A DNA stretch of 64,000 nt from Phenylobacterium sp. (GTDB taxonomy: Bacteria > Pseudomonadota > Alphaproteobacteria > Caulobacterales > Caulobacteraceae), in NCBI RefSeq assembly GCF_016793225.1, contig NZ_JAEUMN010000143.1, positions 1 through 64,000 on the forward strand, written 5' to 3'. The position numbers and the translations under genes were made by a program. The notes under the pieces are model-generated. The model searched no databases and had not been told where the DNA came from. It worked only from the letters and a program-made list of their open reading frames with translations. This document shows, in pieces, positions 10,660 to 49,667 of the stretch; position 1 is the first letter of the stretch, and each line of letters begins with the position of its first letter.

Positions 10660-10749
10660 CCCAGCTTAGGCCGAAGCGCAAGTCCCGGCGACACATTCCC
10701 GCCGCTGGCCCCCTGGCTCTCCCCTGGCGCGGGGCGGGCGGCGCGCCCG

Positions 10750-33480: not shown

Positions 33481-34371
33481 TCAGCGCCGGCCGGCCAGCC
33501 AGGCGGTGACGGCGTCCGCGACGCGGGTCGGCTGTTCCAGGTGCAGGAAGTGCCCGGCGTCCGGGACGACCTGGACGGTGCGGCCGGCGGTGAAGATCTC
33601 GGGCGGCAGGGCGCGCTCGAAGGCGGTCGGGAGCACGCAGGTGTCCAGGGCTCCCGCGAGGCCCAGGGCCGGACAGGGGATCGCCCGGCCGAGCAGCGCC
33701 AGCGCCTCGGCGAAGCGCGGATGGTCGTCCGCGAAGGCGCGCCGGTAGTACGCCAGGGCGCTGTCGAGGACCCCCGGCTCCGCGAAGGCCGCCCGCATGG
33801 CCGCGAGGGGCCCGGGGTCGGGCTCCCAGCCCGGCGACCACCGCCGCCACAGCCACTCCAGGAACCGCCCGTCGGCGGCCACGGCCTCGGCCGCCCCCGG
33901 CGCCTGCAGGAACTGGATGTACCAGGTGCGCTCGAGCTGCGCGAAGTCGGCGGGCAGCAGGGCCGCGAAGGCCGCGGGGTGGGCGACCGCCAGCAGGGTC
34001 AACGAGACGACGCGCTGCGGGGCCTTGGCGGCGGCGAGCTGCACCAGGCTGGAGCCCCAGTCGTGGCCGATGAGGTGCGCCGACGGGGCGTCGAGGGCGT
34101 CGAGCCAGCCGAGCACGTCGTCCACCAGCTCCATGAGGCCGAAGTCTGCGTCGGCAGGCCGGGAGGAGGGTTCGTACCCGCGACAGGTGACGGCGACCGC
34201 CCGGAAGCCGCGCGCCGCGACCCGCGGCAGCAGCGGCCGCCAGGTGGCCGGCGTGTCGGGAAAGCCGTGCACGAAGAGGACGAGCGGCCCCTGGCCCATC
34301 TCCCAGGCCGTGAACGCCAGGTCCCCGCGACGCAGGATGCGCCGCGCGGCGCCGGGGATCAGTCCGTCCAC
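33481..34371 (-). CDS. Alpha/beta hydrolase, epoxide hydrolase-like
   Basis: 296 residues, alpha/beta hydrolase fold: oxyanion motif VHGFPDTPATWRPL, nucleophile elbow GHDWGSSLVQ with Asp as predicted nucleophile, and C-terminal DAGHFLHLEQP for the catalytic His. The Asp nucleophile points to the epoxide hydrolase/dehalogenase branch rather than an esterase. Last gene of a four-gene module A operon; it overlaps the dehydrogenase stop by 13 bp. GTG start at 34369-34371. Confidence 0.85.
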   Translation of the reverse strand: MDGLIPGAARRILRRGDLAFTAWEMGQGPLVLFVHGFPDTPATWRPLLPRVAARGFRAVAVTCRGYEPSSRPADADFGLMELVDDVLGWLDALDAPSAHLIGHDWGSSLVQLAAAKAPQRVVSLTLLAVAHPAAFAALLPADFAQLERTWYIQFLQAPGAAEAVAADGRFLEWLWRRWSPGWEPDPGPLAAMRAAFAEPGVLDSALAYYRRAFADDHPRFAEALALLGRAIPCPALGLAGALDTCVLPTAFERALPPEIFTAGRTVQVVPDAGHFLHLEQPTRVADAVTAWLAGRR

Positions 34372-35405
34372 GGGCGGACCAGGATCTTGGCGTGCTGCTC
34401 GGGATCGCTGAGGTCGGCGAACGCCTGGGTGACCCCGTCGAGGCCCACCTCGCCCGTCAGCATGGCGCGCCAGGCGACGCGCCCCCCGGCGATCAGCTGC
34501 AGGGCTTCGGCGAACTCCTCGGCCGTGTAGTAGATGACGAACTGGAGCTGCAGCTCCTTGGTGATCGCAACCATCGGCAGCAGGCTCTCGTCGCCGGCGG
34601 CGATGCCCGTGACCACGATCCGGCTGTCCTTGGGCGCTTCCAGCACGAGGCGGTGCAGCATCCCGGCCGCGCCGGTGTTCTCGAACACCACCACGGGCCG
34701 GCCGGCCGCCTGGTCGGCGGCCAGCGCCAGCACGCTGTCGCGCCGCGGATCGACGGCCACGGTCGCGCCCAGGGCCAGGGCCAGCTCGCGGCGCCGGGGC
34801 GACAGGTCGGCGGCCAGGATCGCCTCGAACCCCCGCGCCCGCAGCACGCCCGCCACCGCCAGGCCGATGGGGCCGCAGCCCACGACGACGCAGGTCTCGT
34901 CGCCCCGCAGAGCCGCCTTGTTGACCGCGTGGACGGCGATGCCGAAGGGCTCGACCAGGGCCGCGGCCTCGTCCGGGACGCTGTCCGGCGCCGGCAGCAG
35001 CAGCGCCTCGGTGAGCTCCATGTACTCCGCGTAGGCGCCCGGCGTCTCGGGACTGGAGCCCACCAGCACGGGCGCGCCGTCGCGCAGCACGAACGGCATG
35101 GAAACGACGCGCGTCCCGGCCGGGAGGGCGCGGGTGGCGCCGGGGCCGAAGTCGACGATCTCGCAGACGAACTCGTGCCCCAGGACCGGCCCCTCGCGCA
35201 GCGTCCGCTCCATGGCCGAGGTGTCGGCGCCGAGTCCCTTCGCCCGGGCGATGATCTCGGGCGCATGGTGGAAGTAGTGCAGGTCCGACCCGCAGATGCC
35301 GCAGGCCCGCACGCGCGCCAGCACATTGCCCGGGCCGGGCTTCGGGATCGGACGGGGCTCCACCTCGAAGCGGCCTTCCCGCATCACGGCCGCCCGCATG
35401 CTCAT
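34359..35405 (-). CDS. Zn-dependent alcohol dehydrogenase
   Basis: 348 residues, medium-chain dehydrogenase: ACGICGSDLHYFHHAP with zinc ligands, GHEFVCEIVDFGPGAT, and the nucleotide-binding VVVGCGPIGLAVAGVL. The four-Cys structural-zinc loop seen in many family members is not obvious. Oxidises an alcohol or reduces an aldehyde with NAD(P). Start ATG at 35403-35405, where ATGA overlaps the cupin stop; an internal ATG at 35399 lacks this coupling. Part of the module A operon 36792-33481. Confidence 0.87.
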   Translation of the reverse strand: MSMRAAVMREGRFEVEPRPIPKPGPGNVLARVRACGICGSDLHYFHHAPEIIARAKGLGADTSAMERTLREGPVLGHEFVCEIVDFGPGATRALPAGTRVVSMPFVLRDGAPVLVGSSPETPGAYAEYMELTEALLLPAPDSVPDEAAALVEPFGIAVHAVNKAALRGDETCVVVGCGPIGLAVAGVLRARGFEAILAADLSPRRRELALALGATVAVDPRRDSVLALAADQAAGRPVVVFENTGAAGMLHRLVLEAPKDSRIVVTGIAAGDESLLPMVAITKELQLQFVIYYTAEEFAEALQLIAGGRVAWRAMLTGEVGLDGVTQAFADLSDPEQHAKILVRPWTD

Positions 35406-35944
35406 TCGCCGACCACGATCAGCTTCGAGCGGTCCAGCCCCATGGCGTCGCAGTATCCGCGATAGAGGTCGAGCGCGGCGCGGGCGTCGATCACCGAGGT
35501 GATCTGGCCCTGCTCGTCGAGATTGAGATTGGCGCCGTAGATGGCGAACCACGTCACCATCCGGCCCGGCATGTCGGCAGGGGTGCAAAGGGTGTGGCGC
35601 GAGCCCGCGGGCTCGAAGAGGTAGGAGCCGGGCCGGTTCACCGCCTCGGGCGTCTCGCGGTAGTACCAGGCGCCCTCCAGGGTCACCGCGAACACCAGGC
35701 CGGTGTGGTAGTGCGTCGGAACCTGATAGCCGGGCGGCAGCCGCGTCTTGGAGATCCAGAGGCCCTGGTTGAGATCGACGTGCAGCAGCTGCAGCGCCGA
35801 TCCGTCGCCCGCCTCCATCCAGGGCATGTCGTCGTCGCCCAGGTGCAGGGTGGGCAGAAGGCCGTCGGCCGGCACCATGGGCCGGGCGGCCAGGGCTTGC
35901 GCGAATTCGGCGAGGCGCGCGTCGCGGGCGGCGGCGTCATCCAT
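35402..35944 (-). CDS. Cupin-fold protein, dihydroxyacetophenone dioxygenase-like
   Basis: 180 residues, one cupin domain: the first metal block PTHYHTGLVFAVTLEGAWYY and the second FEPAGSRHTLCTP. The set resembles the 2,4'-dihydroxyacetophenone dioxygenase family, small Fe-dependent cleavage enzymes. The active metal is expected at the His residues. It overlaps the dehydrogenase gene by 4 bp and starts 14 bp after the PF10118 gene. It may cleave an aromatic ketone in the module A pathway; this is inference. Confidence 0.75.
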   Translation of the reverse strand: MDDAAARDARLAEFAQALAARPMVPADGLLPTLHLGDDDMPWMEAGDGSALQLLHVDLNQGLWISKTRLPPGYQVPTHYHTGLVFAVTLEGAWYYRETPEAVNRPGSYLFEPAGSRHTLCTPADMPGRMVTWFAIYGANLNLDEQGQITSVIDARAALDLYRGYCDAMGLDRSKLIVVGE

Positions 35945-35958
35945 CGGGCGGCTCCGGT

Positions 35959-36792
35959 CTATTGAACGCTGACGGCGCGCGCCGAGAACTCGGCGCGGGC
36001 GGCGGAGAACCCGTCGGGCAGACGCACCCGGCCGGGATCGTACCAGGGCATGAAGGTGCCCAGCAGGCGTGGCAGGTAGTCGCGCTGGTAGGCGGCGGCG
36101 CGCCGCTTGCGGACCCTCGCCCATTCCGGCGTGTCGTACCGCGCCATCGTCTCGGGGTCGGCGGCGATCATCTCGCGGGCGAAGCGGCCGCACCAGGCGA
36201 AGTAGTGGCGCTGGAACCAGAGGCTCATGCGCGAGCGATAGAGATAGTCGCCCACCACCGCCTCGTAGACCTCGAAGCAGACGGACCTGTGCTCGATCTC
36301 CTCGAGGATGTGCCAGTACATCAGGCTGCGGATCGGCTCCTTCATCCAGCCGAACATGCCCAGCTGGATCTGCGTCCGCGCGCCGGCGCAGGTCATGGAC
36401 TCGAAGCCCTCGCCGTAGGCCAGGTTGAACTTCAGCGGCTTCTCGGCGCTCCAGGCGGCGAACTCGGCCTCGACCGCCTTCTCGAGCTCGGCGAGCTTCG
36501 GCCCGGACGGGTGCACGCGGCGGACCACCTCGTTCAGGCGCGCGTGCTGGCGGAAGTGCTGGCCCTCCTGGGCGCAGAAGCGGGTCATGCGGGCGCGGAG
36601 GTCCGCATCCTCGATCAGCGGCGTGGCGGCCTGGATCGTGCGGATGAGGAAGGGCTCCAGGTAGGGCAGCATCATCCATGCCCCCACGAAGAAGTAGGAC
36701 AGCCCCGGGTCGCCCTCGATGAACACGAGATCGACGTCGTCGGAGAACTCGAAGTCCATCCGGCGGATGGGAATCGCTTCGGCGGCGTCCAA
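35959..36792 (-). CDS. PF10118-like metal-dependent hydrolase
   Basis: 277 residues, all-helical: AQEGQHFRQHARLNEVV (metal-like E/H block), MYWHILEEIEHRSVCFEVYE and WFQRHYFAWCGRFAR. This pattern matches the PF10118 family of predicted metal-dependent hydrolases, whose E-x2-H arrangement resembles diiron proteins. First gene of the module A operon on this strand; operator A1 lies 36 bp upstream. Substrate unknown. Confidence 0.78.
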   Translation of the reverse strand: MDAAEAIPIRRMDFEFSDDVDLVFIEGDPGLSYFFVGAWMMLPYLEPFLIRTIQAATPLIEDADLRARMTRFCAQEGQHFRQHARLNEVVRRVHPSGPKLAELEKAVEAEFAAWSAEKPLKFNLAYGEGFESMTCAGARTQIQLGMFGWMKEPIRSLMYWHILEEIEHRSVCFEVYEAVVGDYLYRSRMSLWFQRHYFAWCGRFAREMIAADPETMARYDTPEWARVRKRRAAAYQRDYLPRLLGTFMPWYDPGRVRLPDGFSAARAEFSARAVSVQ

Positions 36793-36827
36793 GGCGCGCT
36801 CCTCCTGCCTAGGACCGAAAGAGAACC

Positions 36828-36845
36828 ACTGAACATTTGATTAGT
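36828..36845. promoter_or_regulatory. Module A operator, site A1
   Basis: ACTGAACATTTGATTAGT (36828-36845), an imperfect 18-bp palindrome in the divergent promoter between the PF10118 gene (start 36792) and the MFS gene (start 36908). One of four sites with consensus ACTRAACANTTGNTCAGT. Confidence 0.75.
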
Positions 36846-36907
36846 CTACCCTCTTTGCGTACGGTATCCGCCTGTTCAGCGACGCAAGATCGCGGGGAGA
36901 CGCAGGG

Positions 36908-38203
36908 ATGGCGACGGGCGAGCCGGCGATGGTTCAGGGCGCGGCGACCGCGCCGACCGGCCCGGCCGTCAGTTCCGGCGCCTGGTGGGCCCTCGCGGTC
37001 CTGACCGCCGTCTCGTTCTTCAACTACATGGACCGCATGGTCCTGGCGGTGCTGCTGGAGCCGATCAAGGCCGAGCTCGGCCTGTCGGACAGCCAGCTCG
37101 GCCTGCTCTCGGGCCTCGCCTTCGCCGCCTTCTACGCCACGCTCGGCATTCCGCTGGCCCGGCTGGCGGACCGCACCTCGCGGGTTCGGCTGCTGGCGGT
37201 CTGCGTCGCGACCTGGAGCCTGATGACCGCCGCCACCGGCCTCGCGCGCAGTTTCGGCGGCCTGTTCCTGGCCCGCGTGGGCGTCGGCGTCGGCGAGGCC
37301 GGCTGCGTGCCCGCCGCCCACTCCCTGATCGGCGACTACATGCCCGGGCCCCGGCGCGCGCTGGGCATCTCCGTCTTCCAGGCGGGGGGGCTTGCGGGGC
37401 TCAGCGGGGGCCTGATCCTGACCGGGCTCCTCGCGGACCAGCTGGGCTGGCGCGCCGCCCTGTTCGCCGTGGGGCTGGCCGGCGTCCCCCTCGCCCTCAT
37501 CATCGCCTTGACCCTGCGCGAGCCGGCGCGTCAGGGCCACGACGCGCCCGCGTCCACCGAGCCCGCCGGCGCGGCCCTGCGGGCCCTCCTCGGCCGTCCG
37601 GCCCTGCGCCACCTGGTCCTCGCCCTCTCGGTCGGCGCGTTCGCCACCTACGGCCTGACGCAGTGGATCCCGGCCTTCTTCATCCGCGTCCATGGCCTCT
37701 CCCTGACGCAGATCGGCCTGTGGTCCGGCACGGCCAGCGGCGTGGGCGGGATCCTCGGGGTCATGCTCGGCGGATGGCTGGCCACGCGCCTGATCCCACG
37801 CGACCCGCGCTGGGAGCTCTGGCTGCCGGCCATCGCCTACGGCGGCTCCGCGCCGCTCTACGCCGCCGTGTTCCTGGCCCCGTCGCCGTTCCTGGCCATC
37901 GGCATCAAGCTGGCGGCGACCTTCCTGGCGGCCTCGGGCGGCGGCGTCGCCCTGTCGGCCATTCAGTCCTTCGCCGAACCGCACCGGCGCGCCACGGCCG
38001 TCTCGCTGACCCTCTTCCTGTCCTCCCTGCTGGGCCTGGGTCTCGGCCCCTGGCTGGTGGGCGTGGCCAGCGACGCCCTCGCGCCCGCCCTTGGCCGGGA
38101 GAGCCTGCGCTACGCCCTGCTGATCTCGACCGCCGCCCTGCTGTGGGCGGGACTGCACTTCCTCCTGTCGGCGCGAAGGGCCCTTCGCGACCGACTGCCC
38201 TGA
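36908..38203 (+). CDS. MFS transporter, spinster-like
   Basis: 431 residues, twelve helices expected. N-terminal FNYMDRMVLAVLLEPIKAEL then GLLSGLAFAAFYATLGIPLA, a conserved loop ARLADRTSRVRLL, and RVGVGVGEAGCVPAAHSLIG. The wording closely resembles the module B transporter at 58263. Likely exchanges the module's organic acid or intermediate across the inner membrane. Its stop lies in a triple 13-bp repeat. Confidence 0.9.
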   Translation: MATGEPAMVQGAATAPTGPAVSSGAWWALAVLTAVSFFNYMDRMVLAVLLEPIKAELGLSDSQLGLLSGLAFAAFYATLGIPLARLADRTSRVRLLAVCVATWSLMTAATGLARSFGGLFLARVGVGVGEAGCVPAAHSLIGDYMPGPRRALGISVFQAGGLAGLSGGLILTGLLADQLGWRAALFAVGLAGVPLALIIALTLREPARQGHDAPASTEPAGAALRALLGRPALRHLVLALSVGAFATYGLTQWIPAFFIRVHGLSLTQIGLWSGTASGVGGILGVMLGGWLATRLIPRDPRWELWLPAIAYGGSAPLYAAVFLAPSPFLAIGIKLAATFLAASGGGVALSAIQSFAEPHRRATAVSLTLFLSSLLGLGLGPWLVGVASDALAPALGRESLRYALLISTAALLWAGLHFLLSARRALRDRLP

Positions 38204-38233
38204 AATCCTGCCCTGACCTCCTGCCCTGACATC
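38195..38233. repeat. Triple 13-bp direct repeat at the MFS/aldolase junction
   Basis: CTGCCCTGA recurs at 38195-38203, 38208-38216 and 38221-38229 with 13-bp spacing. The first copy contains the MFS stop codon. The repeat lies directly before the class II aldolase ATG (38247) and may be a slippage product or a regulatory element. Confidence 0.6.
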
Positions 38234-38246
38234 GGAGCCGATCGCC

Positions 38247-38993
38247 ATGGCCTACGACCTGCCTGTCCAGACCGAAGCCGAAGTCCGCCGGGACCTCGCG
38301 GCCGTCTACCGCCTCGTGGCGCTGGAAGGCTGGGACGACCTGATCTTCACCCACATCTCGGCGCGGGTCCCCGGCCCCGAGCACCACTTCCTGATCAACC
38401 CCTTCGGCCTGCGCTTCGATGAGGTGACGGCGTCGAACCTCGTGAAGGTGGACATCGAGGGCAATCCGGTGGGCCCGTCGGCGCACCTGGTGAACCCGGC
38501 CGGCTTCGTGATCCACTCGGCCCTGCACATGGCGCGCGAGGACGCCCAATGCGTGATCCACCTGCACACCGACGACGGGGTCGCCGTGGCGGCGCAGGAG
38601 GACGGGCTCCTGCCCCTGTCGCAGCACGCCATGATGGTGCGCGACGAAGTCGCCTATCATGACTACGAGGGCATCGCCTTCGACCTCGACGAGCGCGAGC
38701 GGCTGGCCGCCGACCTGGGCGACCGGCGCCTGATGCTCCTGCGCAACCACGGCACGCTGTCGGTGGGGCCGAGCTGCGCCTCGGCGTGGCTGGCGATCTA
38801 CTTCCTGGAGCGGGCCTGCACCATGCAGGTGCGCGCCCAGTCCACCGGCGCCCGGCTGGTCCAGCCCCGCCAGGGCGTGCCCGAGAAGGTGACGGACCAG
38901 TCGCGCTCGCTGTTCGACGGCTCGGCCGGCGCCTTCACCTGGCCGGCCCTGCTGCGGAAGCTCGACGCGGAGTCGCCGGGCTACGCGGACTAG
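38247..38993 (+). CDS. Class II aldolase/adducin family protein
   Basis: 248 residues, one aldolase II domain: DLIFTHISARVPGPEHHFLI, metal-binding HLHTDDG and RNHGTLSVGPSCASAWLAIY. Zn-dependent aldolases cleave or form carbon-carbon bonds next to a hydroxyl, and some members are decarboxylases or ring-opening enzymes. Follows the MFS gene on the same strand by 43 bp, so probably same operon. Confidence 0.88.
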   Translation: MAYDLPVQTEAEVRRDLAAVYRLVALEGWDDLIFTHISARVPGPEHHFLINPFGLRFDEVTASNLVKVDIEGNPVGPSAHLVNPAGFVIHSALHMAREDAQCVIHLHTDDGVAVAAQEDGLLPLSQHAMMVRDEVAYHDYEGIAFDLDERERLAADLGDRRLMLLRNHGTLSVGPSCASAWLAIYFLERACTMQVRAQSTGARLVQPRQGVPEKVTDQSRSLFDGSAGAFTWPALLRKLDAESPGYAD

Positions 38994-39013
38994 GTCCGAG
39001 GCCCGCCATTTCA

Positions 39014-39063
39014 GCTTCCGACCGTCCCGGCGAATGCCGGGACCCAGATCCACGTGCGGGATC
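39014..39063. repeat. 50-bp dispersed repeat R2, copy 2
   Basis: Identical over 50 bp to 33305-33354 and followed by partly similar sequence (GGAGGGGCTCC versus GGAAGGGCTCC). It sits between the convergent aldolase and phytanoyl-type dioxygenase genes. Confidence 0.8.
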
Positions 39064-39086
39064 CTGGTTGGAGGGGCTCCCGACCG

Positions 39087-39947
39087 CTAGCCCAGCTTCT
39101 CCTGCTGGACCGAGAAGATCGAGCTGTACTCGCCCGCGCCCCAGTCGGGCGGCATCGGACAGGGATCCGCGTCGAAGCGGGCGTAGGCCGGGGGGCCGCC
39201 CCGCACGATCACATTGGCGAACTTCACCGGGTCCATGATGCGCGTCAGGGGGATGGCGTCGCAGGGCGCGTAGGTGTGCAGCAGCAGCGGCCGCATCCGC
39301 GGCGACAGGTTGGCCCGCGACCCGTGGACGACGCGGCAGTTGTGGACGGTCACGGTCCCGCGGGGACCGGCCAGCCAGCGCAGCGCCGACGCATCCAGGC
39401 GCGCGGCCTCGGCGTCGGACAGCGCGCCCGTCCATGCGCCCTGGTCGTCCCGCAGCCGGCTGAGCGGGCCGCGGTGGCTGCCGGCGAAGACGCCCATGGG
39501 CGCCATGTCGTCGTCGACGTCGGTGAGATAGACGCCGATGGTCAGCGGCCCGTAGTTCGAATGCGGCCAGAACTGGATGTCCTGGTGCCAGCGGATCTCC
39601 TCGCCGCCGCCGGCCGACTTGAAGTTCAGCTTCGAGTGATGGAAGCGCACGTCGGGGCCCAGGAGGTCCTCGGCGAGGTCGACGATAGGTCCGGTCAGGC
39701 CGAACGCCTCGAACACCGGATGGAAGGCGACCGTCTGCGGGATCCGCCGCAGCATCGGATGCTCCGGGGTATGGCCGGGCCCGAGCAGGATATCCGCCGT
39801 GCTCTGCGACAGGGTCCGGCTGCGCTCGACGAAGGCGTCGGCCACCGCCGCGAGCCGGTCGACCCAGTCCGGATCCAGCCAGCCTTCCAGGCAAAGATAG
39901 CCCTCGCGGGCGTAGCGCGCCTTCTCGTCGGGCGTGAGACGTCGCAT
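39087..39947 (-). CDS. Phytanoyl-CoA dioxygenase family protein
   Basis: 286 residues: non-haem Fe(II)/2-oxoglutarate dioxygenase with the PhyH pattern. Metal ligands likely His and Asp in WHQDIQFW and a late His in NCRVVHGSRAN; Arg in the SPRMRPLLLH segment for 2-oxoglutarate. Hydroxylates an acyl-CoA or small substrate. GGAGG lies before ATG 39945-39947. Divergent from the enoyl-CoA hydratase with operator A2 in the gap. Confidence 0.87.
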   Translation of the reverse strand: MRRLTPDEKARYAREGYLCLEGWLDPDWVDRLAAVADAFVERSRTLSQSTADILLGPGHTPEHPMLRRIPQTVAFHPVFEAFGLTGPIVDLAEDLLGPDVRFHHSKLNFKSAGGGEEIRWHQDIQFWPHSNYGPLTIGVYLTDVDDDMAPMGVFAGSHRGPLSRLRDDQGAWTGALSDAEAARLDASALRWLAGPRGTVTVHNCRVVHGSRANLSPRMRPLLLHTYAPCDAIPLTRIMDPVKFANVIVRGGPPAYARFDADPCPMPPDWGAGEYSSIFSVQQEKLG

Positions 39948-39966
39948 CCTGGGCCTCCGCTTATCG

Positions 39967-39984
39967 ACTAAACATTTGCTCAGT
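39967..39984. promoter_or_regulatory. Module A operator, site A2
   Basis: ACTAAACATTTGCTCAGT (39967-39984), the second site of the ACTRAACANTTGNTCAGT set. It lies 20 bp from the PhyH start (39947) and 52 bp from the enoyl-CoA hydratase start (40036), so it can control both. Confidence 0.78.
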
Positions 39985-40035
39985 CCGCGTCCGTCGTCTA
40001 GCCTCGCGGACCAGGAAATTGGGAGAGAGACGCGC

Positions 40036-40821
40036 GTGGCCCTCGTTGAACTGACCCGCGACGGACACGTCGCGACCGTGACCATCAACCGCGCCGAGCG
40101 CCGCAACGCCGTGACGCTGGAGATGATGCAGGATCTCGAGCGGATCAGCCGCGAGTTCCTCCACGACGAGGCGACCCGCGTCGTGATCGTGCGCGCCGAG
40201 GGCCGGGACTTCTCGGTCGGCGCGGACCTCTCCAACCCGCCCAGCCAGCGGGCCCAGGCCTCGATCCTGATGCGCCGCCGCGGGGCCGAGTTCGGCGCGC
40301 AGCTCATGCGCTCGATGCAGGAGATCCCGCAGCCGACGATCTGCGCGGTCCAGGGCATCGCCACGGGCGCGGGGGCCTGCATCACCTCGGCCTGCGACTT
40401 CCGCATCGGCGCCGACAACGCCCGGATCGGCTACGGCGAGGTCAAGCTCGGCATCAACCTGATGTGGAACGCCGTGCCGATCTGCCTGCACCTCATCGGG
40501 CCGGCGCGGGCCAAGCAGATGATCATGACGGGCAAGCTGTTCGAGGCCGCGACGCTCGAACGGTGGGGCTTCCTCGACGAGGTCGTGCCGCTCGCCGACC
40601 TCGACGCCGCCGCCCGCGAGATGGCCGAGACCTACGCGGCCCTGCCGCCGAACTCGGTGCAGATGATCAAGAAGAGCATCAACAGCCTCTCGGGCGCGCT
40701 GGACCGGGCGGTGATGCACATGGACGCGGACCAGTGGCTGCTGTCCAGCCTCACCGAGGACTACAAGGAGGCGGTCGGCGCCTTCTTCGAGAAGCGCAAG
40801 CCGAGCTTCACCGGCAACTAG
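40036..40821 (+). CDS. Enoyl-CoA hydratase/isomerase family protein
   Basis: 261 residues, crotonase fold: NRAERRNAVTLEMMQDL, oxyanion-hole residues VGADLSNPP and GIATGAGACITSACDFRIG, then NLMWNAVPICLHLIGPARA and EAVGAFFEKRKPSF. Likely hydrates or isomerises an enoyl-CoA in module A. GGGAGAGAG precedes the GTG at 40036. Its stop shares the CTAG tetranucleotide with the stop of the opposite-strand CoA transferase (40818-40821). Confidence 0.9.
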   Translation: MALVELTRDGHVATVTINRAERRNAVTLEMMQDLERISREFLHDEATRVVIVRAEGRDFSVGADLSNPPSQRAQASILMRRRGAEFGAQLMRSMQEIPQPTICAVQGIATGAGACITSACDFRIGADNARIGYGEVKLGINLMWNAVPICLHLIGPARAKQMIMTGKLFEAATLERWGFLDEVVPLADLDAAAREMAETYAALPPNSVQMIKKSINSLSGALDRAVMHMDADQWLLSSLTEDYKEAVGAFFEKRKPSFTGN

Positions 40822-42884
40822 CCGCCCAGGCGGCGCAGGACCTCGTCGGTGTGCTCCCCCAGGCGGGGCGGCGGGGTCGGCTCGGGCAGCCGGGACCGGT
40901 CGAACCGCCAGAACCGGCCGGGATGCTTCGCCCGTCCCTGGCCGTCGGTGTCCAGCGTGATGAACCACCCGCGCGCCTCGAGCTGCGGCTCCTCGAGGGC
41001 CTGAAGCGTGGACAGGACAGGCGTGCGGCGCTCGCCCACGGCCACCTGCCAGGCGTCGACGCCGGACGCCGCCTCCATGCGGGCGGCCGGCTCGGGCCAC
41101 GCCACTGTTGCGCATCCCCGGGCCTCCAGGCTGCGGGCGAGCAGGGCGTCGCCGATGTAGCCGCAGGCGGCCTCCAGCATCGAGCCCTCGACGTGCCCGC
41201 CCTCGTCGGTCGCGAGGCTCCGGTAGAGCGCCACCAGCGTGCAGCCCGCCATCTGGAGCCCGCAGATGGGATCGGCCGGGTAGCCGCCCATCAGCGTCGG
41301 CCGGCCGCGGTGGTCCAGGTTGAGCGCGTCCCAGCCCGCGAGGCCCTCGATCGAGGAGCCGTTGGCCTTGAAATCGGCGTGGGGCCCCTCGGCGCCGAAG
41401 CCGCTGAACGACGTCACCACGAGCCGGGGATTCTCCGTGCGCAGCCGCGCGGGCTCCAGGCCCAGGCGCGCGAGGACCCGGGGCGTGAAGTTCTCGATGA
41501 CGACATCCGAGCCGCGCGCGAGGCGGAGCAGATCGCGGGCGCCCTCGGGCGATCCCAGGTCGAGGGTCAGGCCGAGCTTGTTGCGGTTGGCGGCGTTGAA
41601 GTAGCAGCTGGTGTCCAGCGGACGCGGTCCGGCGGGTTCGGCCTGTCCCAGATGCCGCCAGATGTCCGGGCGCGCGGGCCCCTCCACCTTGATCACCTCG
41701 GCGCCCAGGTCGGCCAGCATGATCCCGCAGATCGGCCCGATCCAGGCCTGGGTCAGGTCCAGCACCCGCAGGCCTTCGAGCGGCGCCGGCCCGCCCGCAT
41801 CGCCCGCCCGGTCGCTGCGCGGCGCCCACGCGGGCGGGGCCTCGCGGGCCGCCGGGGCCGGCGGCGCCGCGCCGTCGAGGCGCGCCGGCGACAGCGGGAT
41901 CCGCCCCTCTCCCAGCGCCGTCGCCTGGGGCGAGAAGGCGCGCAGGTCCTCCAGCTGGCGGTCGGCGAGGACGTCGTCGAGGGACTGGACCTTGCCGCAG
42001 ACCACGCCGCGAACCTGAAGCCCCAGGAACACCTCCTCCATGGAAAGCCGCGAGGCGTAGGGCGCCAGGGCCGCGGCCACCCGGTCGACCCCCGCACCGA
42101 GCACCCGCGCCTCCGGAATCTCGATCACAACGTCGTCGGGCACACACAGAACCTCGCGGTAGGCCTCGAGGTGGACGCCGATCGCCGGGGCGACGGCGAC
42201 ATGGCCGTCCCGGCACGGAAGCAGCCGCGCGCCCTCGGGCGTGCCGCCGTTGCGGACCGTGGCGTGGCCCTGCTGCTGCTCGCGCACGAAGGGGACGAGG
42301 CCGGCGATCGTCTCCAGTCCCGAGACCTCCACGAGCTCCCCGCACCCCCAACGCCTCTGGCGGATGAGGCCGCCCATCGCGCCCACGAAGGCGTTGGCGC
42401 CGATCGCGTAGTCGAGCAGCCGCGCCGGCGCGGGAAGCGGGGGTCCGTCCGCCGGACCGTTGAGGCTGAGGTAGCCGCTCAGCGCCTCCAGCTCGGCGAT
42501 GCACGCGTCCTGCCCCGCTCGCGGCCCCGAGAGGCCGAAGGGCGAGATGGACACGAAGACCACGCCAGGCCGCCGCGCGGCGAGGTCGTCCCATCCGGCC
42601 GCGCCGGGCGGCTCGAAGCCGCCGATCACGACGTCGGCGGCGTCCAGGAGACCGCGCCCGCTGTCGGTGAGCCGGCGCTTGCCGGTCTGGAGGTAGGCTT
42701 CCGCGGCCGAGGCGGCGCGTCCGTCGCGCCGGATCGTCGGCCCCGCCGCCGCCACGACCGCGGCCTGCTCGGCCGATACGGCCACCTCGGCGCCCCAGAG
42801 CGCGAGCTGCCGGCCGCAGAAGGCTGCGGACAGGCCGCCGCCGAGCTCCAGGACCCGGACCCCCGCAAGTGGAAGCCGGTCCAT
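40818..42884 (-). CDS. Two-domain CaiB/BaiF-type CoA transferase
   Basis: 688 residues, about twice the usual 380-410. Two CaiB/BaiF-like halves are visible: the first opens GVRVLELGGGLSAAFCGRQL and the second GLRVLDLTQAWIGPICGIML at about residue 368, with AEVIKVEGPARPDIWR following. Catalytic Asp in the family lies in a DFK-like segment; the second half has NADFKANGSSIEGL-type wording (HADFKANGSSIEG). Transfers CoA between carboxylates. Starts 4 bp after the TauD-type gene stop; same operon as TonB receptor 46090-43955. Confidence 0.88.
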   Translation of the reverse strand: MDRLPLAGVRVLELGGGLSAAFCGRQLALWGAEVAVSAEQAAVVAAAGPTIRRDGRAASAAEAYLQTGKRRLTDSGRGLLDAADVVIGGFEPPGAAGWDDLAARRPGVVFVSISPFGLSGPRAGQDACIAELEALSGYLSLNGPADGPPLPAPARLLDYAIGANAFVGAMGGLIRQRRWGCGELVEVSGLETIAGLVPFVREQQQGHATVRNGGTPEGARLLPCRDGHVAVAPAIGVHLEAYREVLCVPDDVVIEIPEARVLGAGVDRVAAALAPYASRLSMEEVFLGLQVRGVVCGKVQSLDDVLADRQLEDLRAFSPQATALGEGRIPLSPARLDGAAPPAPAAREAPPAWAPRSDRAGDAGGPAPLEGLRVLDLTQAWIGPICGIMLADLGAEVIKVEGPARPDIWRHLGQAEPAGPRPLDTSCYFNAANRNKLGLTLDLGSPEGARDLLRLARGSDVVIENFTPRVLARLGLEPARLRTENPRLVVTSFSGFGAEGPHADFKANGSSIEGLAGWDALNLDHRGRPTLMGGYPADPICGLQMAGCTLVALYRSLATDEGGHVEGSMLEAACGYIGDALLARSLEARGCATVAWPEPAARMEAASGVDAWQVAVGERRTPVLSTLQALEEPQLEARGWFITLDTDGQGRAKHPGRFWRFDRSRLPEPTPPPRLGEHTDEVLRRLGG

Positions 42885-42887
42885 CCG

Positions 42888-43910
42888 TCAGGCCCCGACC
42901 GAGACCAGGAAGCGCAGCAGCAGCCGTTCATGGCCCGGCGCATCCTCGAAGGCGGTGCGGGCGTGCAGCAGCGCGTGGTTGTTGAGGATCTGGATGTCCC
43001 CCGCCTCCAGCCTGAACTTCAGCCCGACACCGGGCTCCTCGGCGAGGGCATCGTACGTGTCCAGCAGGTCGCGATCCACGGCCACGCCGTGCCGCTCCAC
43101 GCTGCGGAAGTAGTCCGAGATGTAGAACGTGTAGAGCCGGTCGCCGTCGAAGGTGCAGGGAGTCATCTCGGCGAAGGGCGCAGCGTCGGCGGCCTGTTCG
43201 TTGCGCAGGTCGAACGGCATCGGCCGGAACAGCTTCGCCGCCAGATCCGGGCGGCGACGGCGCAGCTCGTTGTAGACCGTGGACGAGCTTGCGATGCGGC
43301 TGTCGCCGCCGGTCATGGCCGGGCGCACGCACAACAGGCCTACGAGATCAGCGGCGTCGCAGTGGAACCTGAACTCGCCCGATGTGGCGTACAGGCGCGC
43401 GTGCGGATCGCGGCTGGCGGCGCCGGTGTCGCGCACCTCCCCGATCACGTCGCCCTGCGGATTGTTGAACCCCAGCCGCCCGAACTGCAGACCCAGGACG
43501 CGCATGAAGAGCTTCTGCTCGGCGAGGTCCCAGCGCTCCACAGGCGCGCCGCGCAGGACGAGGAAGCCGCGCCCGCTCGCAAGCGTCTCGCGCCAGCGCG
43601 CCACCGTCGCGGCCTGGCCTTCCAGCCCCACGTCGGCCGGTCCCAGGGCATCGAGGTCTCGCCCCCTCACCCGGGCCATCGCCGCATCCACGGCGGCGAC
43701 AAGTTCGGGACTGAGCCGTTCGCTCCAGTCTTCGGCGCCGCCGAGGTCGGGCGCGCACCAGGCCGCGGCGCCTGTGACGGGACCCGGCGGCGGACCGCCC
43801 TGCGGCCGGTTCAGGAAGTGAGCCGACTGCTCGGCGATGGTCATCAGACGCGACTGGGACACGTTCGCTTCCGCCTTACGCACGGGAGGACTGGGACATG
43901 GGGCGGTCAC
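42888..43910 (-). CDS. TauD/TfdA-like Fe(II)/2-oxoglutarate dioxygenase
   Basis: 340 residues. His-x-Asp in FRFHCDAADLVGLLC, distal His in NNHALLHARTAFED, and Arg in the C-terminal ERLLLRFLVSV, matching the TauD/TfdA ligand set. Oxidatively cleaves or hydroxylates an organic substrate using 2-oxoglutarate. Start uncertain: GTG 43908-43910 or GTG 43862, the second with GGAAG upstream. Lies between the TonB receptor and the CoA transferase genes. Confidence 0.85.
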   Translation of the reverse strand: MTAPCPSPPVRKAEANVSQSRLMTIAEQSAHFLNRPQGGPPPGPVTGAAAWCAPDLGGAEDWSERLSPELVAAVDAAMARVRGRDLDALGPADVGLEGQAATVARWRETLASGRGFLVLRGAPVERWDLAEQKLFMRVLGLQFGRLGFNNPQGDVIGEVRDTGAASRDPHARLYATSGEFRFHCDAADLVGLLCVRPAMTGGDSRIASSSTVYNELRRRRPDLAAKLFRPMPFDLRNEQAADAAPFAEMTPCTFDGDRLYTFYISDYFRSVERHGVAVDRDLLDTYDALAEEPGVGLKFRLEAGDIQILNNHALLHARTAFEDAPGHERLLLRFLVSVGA

Positions 43911-43954
43911 GGCCCCCGCAGGACCGCAACCGCCAGTCAGGGCCGGAGGACGCC

Positions 43955-46090
43955 CTAGAAACTGATCCCGAGCTGCACGCCGTAACGCCGCGGATAGAGG
44001 ATCTGCACGGCCGTCGAGCCGATCGCCACCGGGTCCTTGTCGTCGAGGCCGTTGAGCATGAAGCCCTCGAGCCGCCAGTTGTCCTTCTCGACGCCGAGCC
44101 GGACCGTGAGGTCGTTGAGCTCGCCGGCCCGGAGGTTCTTGGTGGTGGCGTCGATCACGTTGTCGCGGAAGGCGTAGCCCAGGTAGAACGTGCCCGTGAC
44201 CCCGCCCAGGGCCGCCAGCTCGCGGCGATAGTCGGCCGACAGCGTCAGGCTCATGTCGGGCACGTTCGGCACCTTGCCGCCCTTCACGATCGCCGTGCCC
44301 ACCGACAGCGCGCCCGTCACCCGCTTGAACCGGGCGTCCTGGATGTTGCCGGTGGCGGCCAGCGTCAGGCCCTGCGCCCAGTCGGGACGGTAGTTCAGAC
44401 CGAAGTCGGCGCCCTCGATCTTTGCATCGCCGCCGTTGGCCAGCGAGATCACCGCGGCGGTCGCGAACTGGACGAGGACGTTGTCCCAGTCGGTGCGATA
44501 GACAGAGCCTTCGACCAGCAGTTGGCCGCTGGCCAGTTCCCAGCGCGTGCCGAGTTCGTAGGTCCAGAGCTTGTCGGGCTGAACGCTGGTCTGGATCGTC
44601 CCCGCCGGGAGCCCGAGCGTCACGTTGGCCGCGGCCGCCTGCGCCGGCGTCTGCAACGCGCCCGAACGGAAGCCCTTGGCCGCGTTGAAGTAGATCGTGC
44701 CGTTGTCCGCGGGCTTGTACTTGAGGTTGAAGCGCGGGTTCCAGCTGTCGAACTTGAGCTGCCCGACGCGCGGCGCGCCCGTGGCCCGATCGATGCCGTT
44801 CGTGCTGCGGTCGTCCTTGAAGTAGGACAGGCCGAAGAGGGGCGTGAGGCGACCGTCGAGCAGCGGGGCCGACACCTCGCCGAACACCGAGTAGCTGTCG
44901 GTGTCGATCGTGCCGAGGGTGTTGATGATCCCGGTCCGCGCGGCGGTGGGCGTGAGCTGCGAATAGTAGAAGATGTCGGAGCGGATCTTGGCGTTGCGGG
45001 TGTAGCCGCCGACGATCCAGGTGACGGGGCTGTCCGCCTTGGACGAGAGCCGCACTTCGTTGGTGTACGACTTGGTGTGGAACGTGGAGTCGTTGACGAG
45101 GATCGTCAGGAGCGGCGCCAGGAAGTCGAGTTCGTGGTCGACGTACGAGGTGTTGGCCACGAGGTCCGCGAACCCGACGTCCCAGTTCACCGTCGCCGAG
45201 TAGATGTCGGCGTCGACGTCGGTGTAGCCGCGCCGGCCGCCGGTCCCCACGATGCCCGGGAGGTTGAACGGCGTCGGCGCCAGGAGCCGCGTGGTCGCGT
45301 TGTTCGGCGTCAGGCTGTTCGAGAAGTCCTGCTTGTTGCGGATCGTCCAGACGAAGCCGGTGACCGTCACGTCGTCCGAGGGCGTCCAGCCCAGCGTCAG
45401 GCGCGCGTTCGTGCCCTTGAAGCCGTTCACGTTGCGCTCGCGCAGCTCGGGCGCCTCGGCGAAGCCGCTGAGCTTCTCGTAGCCGGCCGAAATGCGGGCC
45501 GCGAGCTTGCCGGCCACCAGCGGCAGGTTGACCACCGCGTCGACGTTGTAGTTGGTCCCGCCGCCCTCGGTCGTGGAGAGCTCGCTCTGGGCCTTGCCGG
45601 AGAAGGCGCTGGAGTCGGGCTTGGCGGTGATCAGCTTGATGGTGCCGCCCATCGAGCCCTGGCCGTAGAGCGTGCCCGAGGGGCCGCGGATGACCTCGAC
45701 GCGCTCCAGATCCAGGAGCCGCGCCGGCGGCGTGAGCTGCAGGTTCGGAACGCCGAAGGGCGTGTCGTCGATGTAGTAGCCGACGAGCCCGTCGCCGGTC
45801 GTGCCGCTGGACACGCCGCGGATCTGCACCGTCTCGAAGCCGGGCGTCGTGCTGGAGACCACGCTGGCCCCGGGGATCAGCTTGGTGAGGTCCGACACCT
45901 TGACCGCGCCGCTGCGCGCGACGTCCTCGCCGCTCAGCGCCTGAACGGCGAGGGGGACGTCCACGAGGCGCTCCTCACGCTTCTGGGCGGTCACCACCAG
46001 TTCGGAGACCGTGGCGTCGTCGTCTGCGGCGAAGGCCGGAACGCCGATGGCGGCGCAGACGGTCGCGAGCAGAATTGTACGGGTGTTCAT
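43955..46090 (-). CDS. TonB-dependent receptor (module A)
   Basis: 711 residues: signal peptide MNTRTILLATVCAAIGVPAF, plug domain with VTAQKREERLVDVPLAVQAL, IRGVSSGTTGDGLVGYYIDD and RVEVIRGPSGTLYGQGSMGG, then a beta-barrel to residue 711 ending in Phe (GVQLGISF). Outer-membrane importer for the module's substrate. GGGGGAGA precedes ATG 46088-46090; the longer frame upstream is unlikely. First gene of the operon TonB receptor, TauD-type dioxygenase, CoA transferase. Operator A3 is about 99 bp upstream. Confidence 0.92.
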   Translation of the reverse strand: MNTRTILLATVCAAIGVPAFAADDDATVSELVVTAQKREERLVDVPLAVQALSGEDVARSGAVKVSDLTKLIPGASVVSSTTPGFETVQIRGVSSGTTGDGLVGYYIDDTPFGVPNLQLTPPARLLDLERVEVIRGPSGTLYGQGSMGGTIKLITAKPDSSAFSGKAQSELSTTEGGGTNYNVDAVVNLPLVAGKLAARISAGYEKLSGFAEAPELRERNVNGFKGTNARLTLGWTPSDDVTVTGFVWTIRNKQDFSNSLTPNNATTRLLAPTPFNLPGIVGTGGRRGYTDVDADIYSATVNWDVGFADLVANTSYVDHELDFLAPLLTILVNDSTFHTKSYTNEVRLSSKADSPVTWIVGGYTRNAKIRSDIFYYSQLTPTAARTGIINTLGTIDTDSYSVFGEVSAPLLDGRLTPLFGLSYFKDDRSTNGIDRATGAPRVGQLKFDSWNPRFNLKYKPADNGTIYFNAAKGFRSGALQTPAQAAAANVTLGLPAGTIQTSVQPDKLWTYELGTRWELASGQLLVEGSVYRTDWDNVLVQFATAAVISLANGGDAKIEGADFGLNYRPDWAQGLTLAATGNIQDARFKRVTGALSVGTAIVKGGKVPNVPDMSLTLSADYRRELAALGGVTGTFYLGYAFRDNVIDATTKNLRAGELNDLTVRLGVEKDNWRLEGFMLNGLDDKDPVAIGSTAVQILYPRRYGVQLGISF

Positions 46091-46188
46091 GTCGCGTGAA
46101 TCTCCCCCTCGTGGCCCGACTGGACCGTTTTGCATTTCGTTACAGCGGCACGAGACTCACATCGTCCAGGCTCACTGGTGGAGAAGAG

Positions 46189-46206
46189 ACTAAACACTTG
46201 TACAGC
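46189..46206. promoter_or_regulatory. Module A operator, site A3
   Basis: ACTAAACACTTGTACAGC (46189-46206), the third site of the set. It lies in the divergent promoter between the TonB receptor (start 46090) and the acyl-CoA synthetase (start 46273). Confidence 0.7.
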
Positions 46207-46272
46207 CGTTCCGCAAGCGTCATTGTCAGGACGGCGGCGGTGGAGCCGCAGACGCGTCAACTGAGGACCTGA

Positions 46273-47850
46273 ATGAACAAGCGTGCGGCCCAGCCGATGG
46301 CCGGCCTACGTCGCCTGGACGACCTGCTCGACCATGCATGCGAGTTGGCCCACGACCGTGTCGCCGCCATGGAGGAGGGCCGAAGCCTCACCTATGCGGG
46401 TCTGCGCAGCGCGGTGGACGCCTACGCCTGCGCGCTGCTGGCGGCCGGCGTGAAGCGCGGAGACCGGGTCGCCATGCTCGCCGCGCCTTCCGTGGACTTC
46501 TGGATCGCCTTCCACGCCGCCGCGGGCATCGGGGCGATCTGGCTCGGGATCAACCCGCGCTACCAGCGGCGCGAGTTCGAGCACGTCCTCGCCGATTCCG
46601 ACCCGGCGCTGGTGGTGGCCATGTCGCCGTTCGAAGGCCGAGACTACTGCGCCGAGCTCGCGGCGCTCGCGCCGGCCGCCCCGATGGTTTGCCATGGCGA
46701 GCCCAGCGCCGGCGCAGCGTCGCTGGAGACCTTCCTTGCCCGCGGCGCCTCCGTGAGCCGGGCCGAGCTGGCGGCCGCACGCGACGCGGTCGATCCCGAA
46801 GACCCCGCGCTGATCGTCTACACGTCGGGCACGACCGGCCGGCCCAAGGGCGCCATGCTCTCGCACAGAGCCATCGTGGCCTCGGCCCTGGCGAACCGGG
46901 AGTGGATGGGCGCGGCGAACCTCGAGAGCTCGGTCTGCGCGGCTCCGGTCAACCACGTCGGCGCCATCAACAACCTCTGCATGCCGGTCCTGGCCGCCTG
47001 CGGACGCCTCATCTTCCATCCGCGGGTCGACCTTCCCGTGCTGGCCGAGATCAGTCGGCGGGAACGGCCCAGCTACCTGGTCTCGTCGCCGACCGGCTTC
47101 GCGATGATGCTGCAGCAGCCGCAGGGCGCGGCCGACCGACTGGCCTACACGCGGCTCATCGTGTTCGGCGGCGCTGTCACCCCGAAGCCGATCCTGGAGC
47201 AGATCGCCCGGCCGGGCCTCGAGCTCGCCAACGTGTACGGCCAGACCGAGACCTGCGGCATCATCACCCGCACGCTCCCCGGCGCCTCGCTGGAGGTGAT
47301 GTCCCAGACGATCGGCCAGGTGCTTCCGGGCGCCGAGATGCGGATCGGGCAGCCGGACGGGTCCGGTCCTGCGCCCGACGGCGTCGCAGGCGAGATCCAG
47401 GTCCGCGGCCCGTATGTGATGAGCGGCTATTTCCGCAACCCTGAGGCCACGCGCGACGCCTTCACCGAAGACGGCTTCCTGCGGACCGGCGACCTGGGCG
47501 TCCGGCGCGCCGACGGGAACGTGGTCTTCGCCGGGAGGCTGAAGGAGATGTTCAAGTCCGGCGGCTACAACGTCTATCCGGTCGAGGTGGAGCAGGCGAT
47601 CTGCGAGCACCCGGCCGCGCAGCTGGCCGCCGTCGTGTCGGTCTCCCATCCGACGTTCCAGGAGGTGGGCCACGCCTTCGTCGAGACGGCGCCCGGCCAG
47701 GACGTCGACGCCGAGACGCTGCGAGCGTTCCTGCGCGACCGGATCGCCAACTACAAGATCCCCAAGGGCTTCACGATCGCCGCCGAGCTGCCGAAGCTGC
47801 CGAACGGCAAGCTCGACAAGCTGGCGCTGAAGCAGGCGGCTGCGGGTTAG
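46273..47850 (+). CDS. AMP-binding acyl-CoA synthetase
   Basis: 525 residues. P-loop motif YTSGTTGRPKGAML (183-196), the GQTE motif in NVYGQTETCG, the hinge TGDLGVRRADGNV and the terminal Lys region LPNGKLDKLALKQA. Activates a carboxylic acid via an acyl-AMP to the acyl-CoA, probably the entry reaction of module A. Converges with the TetR gene 1 bp away. Confidence 0.92.
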   Translation: MNKRAAQPMAGLRRLDDLLDHACELAHDRVAAMEEGRSLTYAGLRSAVDAYACALLAAGVKRGDRVAMLAAPSVDFWIAFHAAAGIGAIWLGINPRYQRREFEHVLADSDPALVVAMSPFEGRDYCAELAALAPAAPMVCHGEPSAGAASLETFLARGASVSRAELAAARDAVDPEDPALIVYTSGTTGRPKGAMLSHRAIVASALANREWMGAANLESSVCAAPVNHVGAINNLCMPVLAACGRLIFHPRVDLPVLAEISRRERPSYLVSSPTGFAMMLQQPQGAADRLAYTRLIVFGGAVTPKPILEQIARPGLELANVYGQTETCGIITRTLPGASLEVMSQTIGQVLPGAEMRIGQPDGSGPAPDGVAGEIQVRGPYVMSGYFRNPEATRDAFTEDGFLRTGDLGVRRADGNVVFAGRLKEMFKSGGYNVYPVEVEQAICEHPAAQLAAVVSVSHPTFQEVGHAFVETAPGQDVDAETLRAFLRDRIANYKIPKGFTIAAELPKLPNGKLDKLALKQAAAG

Positions 47851-47851
47851 G

Positions 47852-48481
47852 CTAGAGGCCCGCGCGCTTGGGCGAGGAGCCGCGGCGGATGAGCGTCATG
47901 TAGGCCCGGTGGCGGCGCTGCCAGAGGTCGCGCTCGTAGCCCGAGCGCCCGAGGACCCGCTTCACATAGGGGTCGAACACCATCGTCCCCAGCTCGAGGT
48001 ACATCATCAGGAACGGCAGCCACAGACGATCCACGTCCGGCGCGAGTTGTCCGGCCGCGTCCATGCGCATCACCGAACTCTGGACGAAGCCGTAAAAGCG
48101 CTGGAAGACCGAGAAGCCCCAGTCGCTCTCTTCCAGCAACGCCCGGCGGAAGTAGGCGACGATGGTCGGCCAGTCCTTCTCATGCCGGGCGATCCAGCCG
48201 TCGATGATCTTGGCGTGATCCTCGGGCGTCGTGGCTTCGGGATGCGCCGCCGCCCCCGTGATGGCGTCTTCGAACTGGGCGATGAAGAACTCGTCCACCG
48301 CCTCCCGCAGGCCGTCCTTCGACCCGAAGTGGTGATTGATCAGCCCGACGCTGACGCCGGACGCGGCCGCGATATCGCGCACCGTGACGCTGTCGAACCC
48401 CTTCTCGGCGAACAGAACGAAAGCCTCGCGGACCAGCCTGTCTCGGCCGACAGGCGCCTCCCGGGGTGTGGCTTGGGTCAA
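47852..48481 (-). CDS. TetR family regulator (module A)
   Basis: 209 residues with an N-terminal helix-turn-helix: REAFVLFAEKGFDSVTVRDI, AAASGVSVGLINHHFGSKDG. TTG start (48479-48481) with GGAG upstream. The ligand-binding C-terminal domain is not assignable. Site A4 lies 139 bp upstream of the start, and the other three sites match, so it is the most likely binder of the module A palindrome. Expected to be derepressed by the substrate or an acyl-CoA. Confidence 0.85.
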   Translation of the reverse strand: MTQATPREAPVGRDRLVREAFVLFAEKGFDSVTVRDIAAASGVSVGLINHHFGSKDGLREAVDEFFIAQFEDAITGAAAHPEATTPEDHAKIIDGWIARHEKDWPTIVAYFRRALLEESDWGFSVFQRFYGFVQSSVMRMDAAGQLAPDVDRLWLPFLMMYLELGTMVFDPYVKRVLGRSGYERDLWQRRHRAYMTLIRRGSSPKRAGL

Positions 48482-48619
48482 TTGCGGCTCTCCATTCGCC
48501 CCTTCTCGCGCCTCGTTCAGCCCGACGCCAGATTTTTCCCGCAGTGAGCGCCGGCGTGTTCAGCCACAGAGCAGAAAAAGTGACCGCCAAGGTCCGGCTG
48601 CCTTGAAAAGCGACGCTGC

Positions 48620-48637
48620 ACTGAACTATTGTTCAGT
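48620..48637. promoter_or_regulatory. Module A operator, site A4
   Basis: ACTGAACTATTGTTCAGT (48620-48637), the most symmetrical of the four (the outer seven bases of each arm pair exactly). It lies between the TetR start (48481) and the SDR gene start (48747), so it may mediate autoregulation and control of the SDR. Confidence 0.8.
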
Positions 48638-48746
48638 CTCAACCGCCCCGCGACCGGGGCGATCTGCTTCCACCGCCGGCCCGGCTGCGCGCACCGTCTT
48701 GGGGCGACCGCGCTCCGACGCCCAATCGAGAACAGGGACATCCAGG

Positions 48747-49667
48747 ATGAGCATTCGCTTCGACGGCCGCGTCGCCATCGTCACGGGAGCGGGCGCCGGC
48801 CTCGGCCGCGCCCATGCCCTGGGTCTCGCGGCGCGGGGCGCGCGGGTGGTGGTGAACGACTTCGGTGGCGGGATCGACGGTTCCGGCGCCTCGTCGGCGC
48901 CCGCGGACGCCGTCGCCGCGGAGATCCGGGCCGCGGGCGGCGAAGCCATCTCCCACGGCGCGGACGTCACCAACGCGGAACAGGTCGCCGACATGGTCGG
49001 CCAGGCGCTGAAGACGTGGGGGACGGTCGACATCCTGATCAACAACGCCGGCATCCTGCGCGACGCCAGCTTCGCCAAGATGTCGATCGCCGACTTCCGC
49101 AAGGTGGTCGAAGTGCACCTGATGGGGTCGGTGGTCTGCAGTCACGCCGTGTGGCCGCACATGCGGGCCGCAGGCTATGGCCGCATCCTCATGACCACCT
49201 CGTCGTCAGGCCTCTACGGCAACTTCGGCCAGTCCAACTACGGGGCGGCCAAGACGGCTCTCATCGGACTGATGAACGTCCTGCAGATCGAGGGCGAGAA
49301 GAACGACATCCGCGTGAACACGCTGGGCCCCGGCGCCGCGACCCGGATGACCGAAAGCCTGATCGCGCCCGACATCCTGAAGCTGATGACGCCGCAGTCG
49401 GTGACCCCGACGGCCCTGTTCCTCGTCAGCGAGGACGCTCCACGGCGGACCATCCTCAATGCGACGGCGGGCGGCGTTTCACGCACGTACATCCACGAGA
49501 CCGAGGGGGTCTACCTGCCGCCCGAAGACAACACGCCCGAGCGGATCGCGGAGTTGTTCGACGAAATCTCAGACGTACGGGGCCAGCACCTCTACGCCGC
49601 CGGCGGCGCCCAGGTGATGAAGTTCGTGGGCAAGGCCGCCCAGGCTATGGGAGTCAGGCTGGGGTGA
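48747..49667 (+). CDS. SDR oxidoreductase, multifunctional-enzyme type 2-like
   Basis: 306 residues. TGAGAGLGRAHALGLAARGA cofactor motif, NNAGILRDASFAKM, Tyr-x3-Lys in SNYGAAKTAL, and the C-terminal segment GGVSRTYIHETEGVYLPP. The opening and the NAGILRD wording match the (3R)-hydroxyacyl-CoA dehydrogenase domain of peroxisomal multifunctional enzyme type 2 (17-beta-HSD4 type). Fits the CoA pathway of module A. Start ATG 48747 by the SDR N-terminus. Confidence 0.88.
   Translation: MSIRFDGRVAIVTGAGAGLGRAHALGLAARGARVVVNDFGGGIDGSGASSAPADAVAAEIRAAGGEAISHGADVTNAEQVADMVGQALKTWGTVDILINNAGILRDASFAKMSIADFRKVVEVHLMGSVVCSHAVWPHMRAAGYGRILMTTSSSGLYGNFGQSNYGAAKTALIGLMNVLQIEGEKNDIRVNTLGPGAATRMTESLIAPDILKLMTPQSVTPTALFLVSEDAPRRTILNATAGGVSRTYIHETEGVYLPPEDNTPERIAELFDEISDVRGQHLYAAGGAQVMKFVGKAAQAMGVRLG

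Follow-up and report, generated by a model that had tools for sequence, protein, structure and literature searches.

A candidate TetR repressor and four recurring operator-like sites in a coenzyme A-ester catabolic gene cluster of Phenylobacterium sp.

Catabolic gene clusters controlled by a TetR-family regulator that acts on repeated palindromes are an established kind of system, and we describe here a candidate case in Phenylobacterium sp., in which a TetR protein (47852–48481) and four 18-bp operator-like sites accompany a cluster of 14 genes. The window analyzed is the first 64,000 nucleotides of contig NZ_JAEUMN010000143.1 (assembly GCF_016793225.1). RaaS (Rv1219c), the top structural match of the window TetR, is a mycobacterial autorepressor that heads an efflux-pump operon (PMC3993263, PMC4155686), and its operator was tested by gel shift with an oligonucleotide that needs two repeats for binding (PMC3993263). 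The same oligonucleotide contains the core TGAAC-N4-GTTCA found in our consensus of 49 sites, whereas the window tetR adjoins genes for an acyl-coenzyme A (acyl-CoA) ligase and an SDR oxidoreductase, and none of the 14 genes encodes an ABC exporter. Response to oleoyl-CoA, a mark of the RaaS orthologue group, is one that the window TetR might share by analogy. EdcR of Caenibius tardaugens, a TetR protein that represses the edc cluster and responds to estrogens, likewise sits in a catabolic cluster, here of a sphingomonad, and controls several promoters by means of a recurring palindrome (PMC8700777). Its operator (TnnCnnTACnAnTnGTAnnGnnA) is nevertheless unrelated, and by eye the window sites lack its TAC-N5-GTA core. 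DesT, which controls a desaturase operon, was compared by fold only; it shares 12% identity with the window TetR (PDB 3lsp, 3lsr). KstR2 (PDB 4w97, 4w1u) also controls a pathway and has a CoA-ester effector, HIP-CoA (PMC8700777), and resembles the window TetR with an E-value of 2e-6, but the similarity is confined to the helix-turn-helix (HTH) region, residues 13–62, and it belongs to an actinobacterial steroid pathway. With just fold or HTH similarity seen, both DesT and KstR2 were set aside as models.

The sequence makes it probable that an autoregulated TetR represses a CoA-ester (beta-oxidation-type) catabolic cluster through four operators; its relief by an acyl-CoA of the pathway is somewhat more likely than not. 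All four sites proposed in the initial annotation are present, at 36828, 39967, 46189 and 48620, and each of the four lies in an intergenic region between divergent genes, with the nearest starts 19–138 bp away (20–140 bp had been given). Described there as palindromes, they do share a length of 18 bp, but their symmetry is imperfect, at 6, 6, 5 and 8 of 9 base pairs, respectively; the consensus offered is narrower than that of the wider set, ACTRAACANNTGTTYAGT. Positions C7 and G12 of the sites are invariant. With up to three mismatches to the narrower consensus, a pattern search of the window returned seven strand-hits, at only these four places, whereas 100 shuffled windows gave 0.12 on average and never as many as seven. 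A weight matrix built from the four window sites only, and used elsewhere with a cut-off score of 20, gave these sites scores of 24.6–30.4 and detected no fifth site in the window, even at a score of 12. The own genome (4,599,220 bases in 197 contigs, 97.5% complete) yielded, at up to three mismatches, the four window places and two more with three mismatches each, one within a predicted open reading frame (ORF; C16:6985) and one between two predicted ORFs (C194:17275); a reversed-pattern control gave two matches. Genome-wide, no site of equal quality was found beyond the four.

The sites are linked in evolution with this regulator and these genes. An orthologue of the TetR (E ≤ 1e-25) occurs in 10 of 299 Caulobacteraceae genomes, own included, one of them (G115) as a 67-residue fragment at a contig end. 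The strict palindrome, with up to two mismatches, was present in 61 of the 299, comprising all 10 TetR-positive genomes and 51 of the 289 TetR-negative ones, while three or more sites were found in five genomes, every one TetR-positive. Because the reversed control pattern matched in about 50 of the 299 genomes (hand count), single-site matches are at background level; in two of the 51 TetR-negative genomes with a match (G098 and G108, examined by eye from ORF lists), it lay near neither a recognized cluster gene nor a TetR. A contig scan added orthologues with 48–60% identity to the window TetR in Sphingomonas arenae, Glacieibacterium frigidum, and metagenome-assembled genomes of a Sphingomonas, a member of the Hyphomonadaceae and an alphaproteobacterium; its other four best loci matched genomes already in the Caulobacteraceae set, and L032 corresponds by coordinates to G434 of the class-wide search. 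Where named by NCBI, the orders of TetR-bearing genomes are Caulobacterales, Hyphomonadales and Sphingomonadales. Across the class, 3 of the 385 genomes searched had the TetR, the own genome and G020 among them, and no plasmid record matched it at an E-value of 1e-20.

Sites also stand before cluster genes in the other TetR-bearing genomes, a comparison that the initial annotation had suggested for Phenylobacterium. In 317,920 bp from 14 of them, the matrix returned 43 sites at a score of at least 20, against 0.3 on average for 200 matrices with permuted symmetric columns. Of the cultured environmental relatives, Sphingomonas arenae carries three sites and Phenylobacterium aquaticum one. Together with the four window sites, 47 of 47 fall outside homologous coding regions, so that the scatter of equally good sites across coding DNA named beforehand as a counter-sign was absent, and 46 lie no more than 300 bp upstream of a recognized cluster gene. 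The exception, L034:10605, is shortly before a ligase ORF with a predicted start at 10677; the match to this ORF set in late. Counted by genome, a site preceded the gene for the acyl-CoA ligase in 13/13, the TonB-dependent receptor in 10/10, thiolase in 8/8, metal hydrolase in 7/8, TetR in 10/14 (the orthologues with the N-terminus present), MaoC2 in 4/5, MFS and PhyH each in 4/6, MaoC in 3/5, an epimerase-like protein in 2/5, acyl-CoA dehydrogenase in 1/2 and cupin in 1/8; the values for enoyl-CoA hydratase (5/12) and SDR (3/10) take in paralogues and genes inside operons. No site preceded the genes for alcohol dehydrogenase (8 genomes), alpha/beta hydrolase (8), aldolase (4), CoA-transferase (4), TauD (4), carboxylesterase (3), aldehyde dehydrogenase (1) or flavin monooxygenase (1). 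Among 71 loci with distant homologues (L037–L107), mostly from Nocardia, 98 of 101 matrix matches lie no more than 200 bp upstream of the TetR gene. As these sites stand before their own TetR homologues, the loci (43 matches at a score of 20) cannot serve the matrix as a negative control, and we count them as a positive result. In many of the Nocardia loci the TetR gene is preceded by two palindromes with a spacing of 20 bp, an arrangement like that of the RaaS operator.

The 47852–48481 protein has a TetR_N helix-turn-helix (PF00440; E 8.5e-17, 61.1 bits against a cut-off of 24) and, in an AlphaFold model with a pLDDT of 80, the all-helical two-domain fold of the family; by sequence, a palindromic operator is found at its own promoter (48620) and at three target promoters. 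Co-occurrence, site positions and the likeness to the RaaS operator all point to control of the cluster by one TetR, as first proposed. The proposed extent of control, 33481 to 49667, stands, and the "about 13" genes become 14 when tetR is included. A second TetR-like HTH in the window (57755–58090, minus strand) has 37% identity to residues 12–125 of the cluster TetR.

The 14 genes, identified by Pfam, NCBIfam and PDB sequence searches (Table 1), form eight transcription units, every one starting at one of the four sites. From 36828 run the metal hydrolase-cupin-alcohol dehydrogenase-alpha/beta hydrolase unit (minus strand) and the MFS-class II aldolase unit (plus); from 39967, PhyH (minus) and enoyl-CoA hydratase (plus); from 46189, TonB receptor-TauD-CoA-transferase (minus) and acyl-CoA ligase (plus); and from 48620, tetR (minus) and SDR (plus). 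Co-transcription within each unit is likely, judging by coordinates, since gaps inside units are short or the genes overlap. Among the NCBIfam matches listed for the 14 proteins, only one, to an aldolase-II subfamily model, attained the curated cut-off of its model. Beyond the cluster, the window holds genes for a sulfatase (52471–54261), a second MFS transporter (58263–59546) and a second TonB receptor (61427–63748), and no operator site was found near these three.

Table 1. Genes and predicted operator sites of the cluster (window positions; distances run from site to gene start).
Feature	Position	Strand	Remarks
Alpha/beta hydrolase	33481..34371	-	Nearest solved relatives are epoxide hydrolases
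Zinc-type alcohol dehydrogenase (medium-chain)	34359..35405	-	
Cupin	35402..35944	-	Distant likeness to 2,4'-dihydroxyacetophenone dioxygenase
PF10118 predicted metal-dependent hydrolase	35959..36792	-	Heads four-gene unit; start TTG 36792 or ATG 36759
Operator site 1 (predicted)	36828..36845		Metal hydrolase operon (-), 35 bp; MFS-aldolase operon (+), 62 bp; 6/9 pairs symmetric
MFS transporter	36908..38203	+	
Class II aldolase family protein	38247..38993	+	Behind MFS gene
PhyH-type dioxygenase	39087..39947	-	
Operator site 2 (predicted)	39967..39984		PhyH (-), 19 bp; enoyl-CoA hydratase (+), 51 bp; 6/9 pairs symmetric
Enoyl-CoA hydratase family protein	40036..40821	+	GTG start
Class III CoA-transferase	40818..42884	-	Three matched stretches, apparently duplicated domain
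TauD-type dioxygenase	42888..43910	-	
TonB-dependent receptor	43955..46090	-	Heads three-gene unit
Operator site 3 (predicted)	46189..46206		TonB receptor-TauD-CoA-transferase (-), 98 bp; acyl-CoA ligase (+), 66 bp; 5/9 pairs symmetric, weakest of four
AMP-binding acyl-CoA ligase	46273..47850	+	
TetR-family regulator, 209 aa, proposed repressor	47852..48481	-	TTG start, GGAG upstream
Operator site 4 (predicted)	48620..48637		tetR (-), 138 bp; SDR (+), 109 bp; 8/9 pairs symmetric
SDR oxidoreductase	48747..49667	+	3-Hydroxyacyl-CoA dehydrogenase-like by family matches

In the mechanism that we propose, TetR dimers would occupy one operator in each divergent promoter and so keep eight units off together from four promoters, silencing the regulator's own gene and the seven other units. 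The TonB receptor and the MFS transporter would serve uptake; the acyl-CoA ligase, CoA-transferase, enoyl-CoA hydratase and SDR would provide a beta-oxidation-type sequence, and the PhyH and TauD dioxygenases, cupin, alcohol dehydrogenase, aldolase-family protein and hydrolases other steps. On entry of the substrate, the ligase would form its CoA ester, and this ester or a close intermediate would free the repressor and turn the genes on. In the operators at 36828 and 39967, the right half contributes a TTG hexamer, which is followed after 17 nt by TACGGT and TAGCCT, respectively; since this half can be a −35 box there, a bound dimer would block RNA polymerase. Direct binding and repression, like the operon structure, are predicted from sequence.

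Several observations weigh against this proposal. A −10-like TA stands at the matching distance in a minority of the oriented flanks, 10 of 98 (the top count outside the sites, with rows of close relatives correlated), so overlap with the promoter is not general. One of the 200 permuted matrices gave 44 sites, and 11 of the 43 matrix sites come from the close relatives G220, G136 and G226 and are not independent. A site scoring at least 20 before tetR is missing in 4 of the 14 orthologues (G046, G271, G020 and G434), although G020 has a weak one (15.0) and that of G434 reached 20.0 under a slightly different background, falling later just below the cut-off. RaaS binding, moreover, needs two repeats in the oligonucleotide described, whereas each window promoter has one site at a score of at least 12.

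Of the other ways to read the locus, the most serious keeps the same TetR and operators and makes the inducer the free substrate or another non-CoA compound. EdcR, from a sphingomonad, offers a parallel, since it responds to estradiol, the substrate, and to estrone rather than to CoA esters (PMC8700777); against such an inducer, the two best structural matches of the window TetR bind acyl-CoAs, and it is the acyl-CoA ligase gene that most regularly stands behind a site. For these two reasons we lean, by analogy and with some reserve, toward a CoA ester that the ligase of the cluster forms, or a close intermediate, as the ligand, and regard a non-CoA inducer as a possibility of lesser weight. 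That the TetR is an activator, or activates some units and represses others, we think unlikely: site-to-start distances in the window span 19–138 bp, and overlap with a −35 box is not seen at every site, but the tested parallels RaaS and EdcR are both repressors, and at 36828 and 39967 the −35 box would fall inside the site.

The sites could also be bound by another regulator of the genome, perhaps another TetR, the adjoining tetR being incidental. A search of the own genome with the TetR as query does return 38 matches at E ≤ 1, and TetR proteins of different function have the operator core in common; yet the next best match has 48% identity over only 46 HTH residues, and the sites follow this TetR across genomes and precede its gene, which makes such a substitution very improbable. 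Chance resemblance among four unrelated AT-rich stretches is scarcely credible. Single sites do occur in the 51 TetR-negative genomes, but the excess of strand-hits over shuffled windows, the placement of all 47 sites outside homologous coding regions and the 98 matches beside TetR genes in distant loci speak against it; sites equally common in coding DNA or away from TetR were looked for, and the opposite was found.

Relatives also have genes for thiolase, MaoC hydratases, carboxylesterase, aldehyde dehydrogenase, acyl-CoA dehydrogenase and, downstream on a contig of G179, flavin monooxygenase, a content consistent with a larger compound being oxidized first and then passed to beta-oxidation. 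In G220, G136 and G226, a thiolase gene is divergent from tetR, with a second enoyl-CoA hydratase behind it and the SDR after that; at locus L028 a carboxylesterase lies between the latter two. The window SDR directly follows site 48620 (gap 48638–48746), unlike at loci L017, L018, L020 and L028. The own genome's closest thiolase (66% identity) is on contig C151, on which the pattern search found no operator site. Contig C129 of G179 (L143, 1–6566) carries two operator-like sites, before metal hydrolase and acyl-CoA dehydrogenase genes, and further along the flavin monooxygenase (FMO-like, perhaps of Baeyer-Villiger type).

Literature searches listed no paper on this regulon within the collection searched. 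Tentatively, and with rather less assurance than for the regulon, the cluster could represent an undescribed pathway that handles a bulky carboxylic compound in Caulobacterales, Hyphomonadales and Sphingomonadales; the compound, which may be a cyclic terpenoid or similar natural product, would be taken up through a TonB receptor and sensed by a TetR in the form of the pathway's CoA ester. If the proposal is true, enzymes with loose annotations come together as a single regulon, for which a regulator, an operator and promoters to test are all defined; the acyl-CoA ligase and TetR would offer a direct screening route to the substrate. The operator would then be a searchable tag for scattered pathway members, such as the separate-contig metal hydrolase and acyl-CoA dehydrogenase units of G179, and usable to find more pathway genes in other genomes. 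Since the autorepressor of an actinobacterial efflux operon and the catabolic regulator of an alphaproteobacterium have the operator core in common, DNA recognition seems, on sequence comparison, to have been retained while the controlled genes changed.

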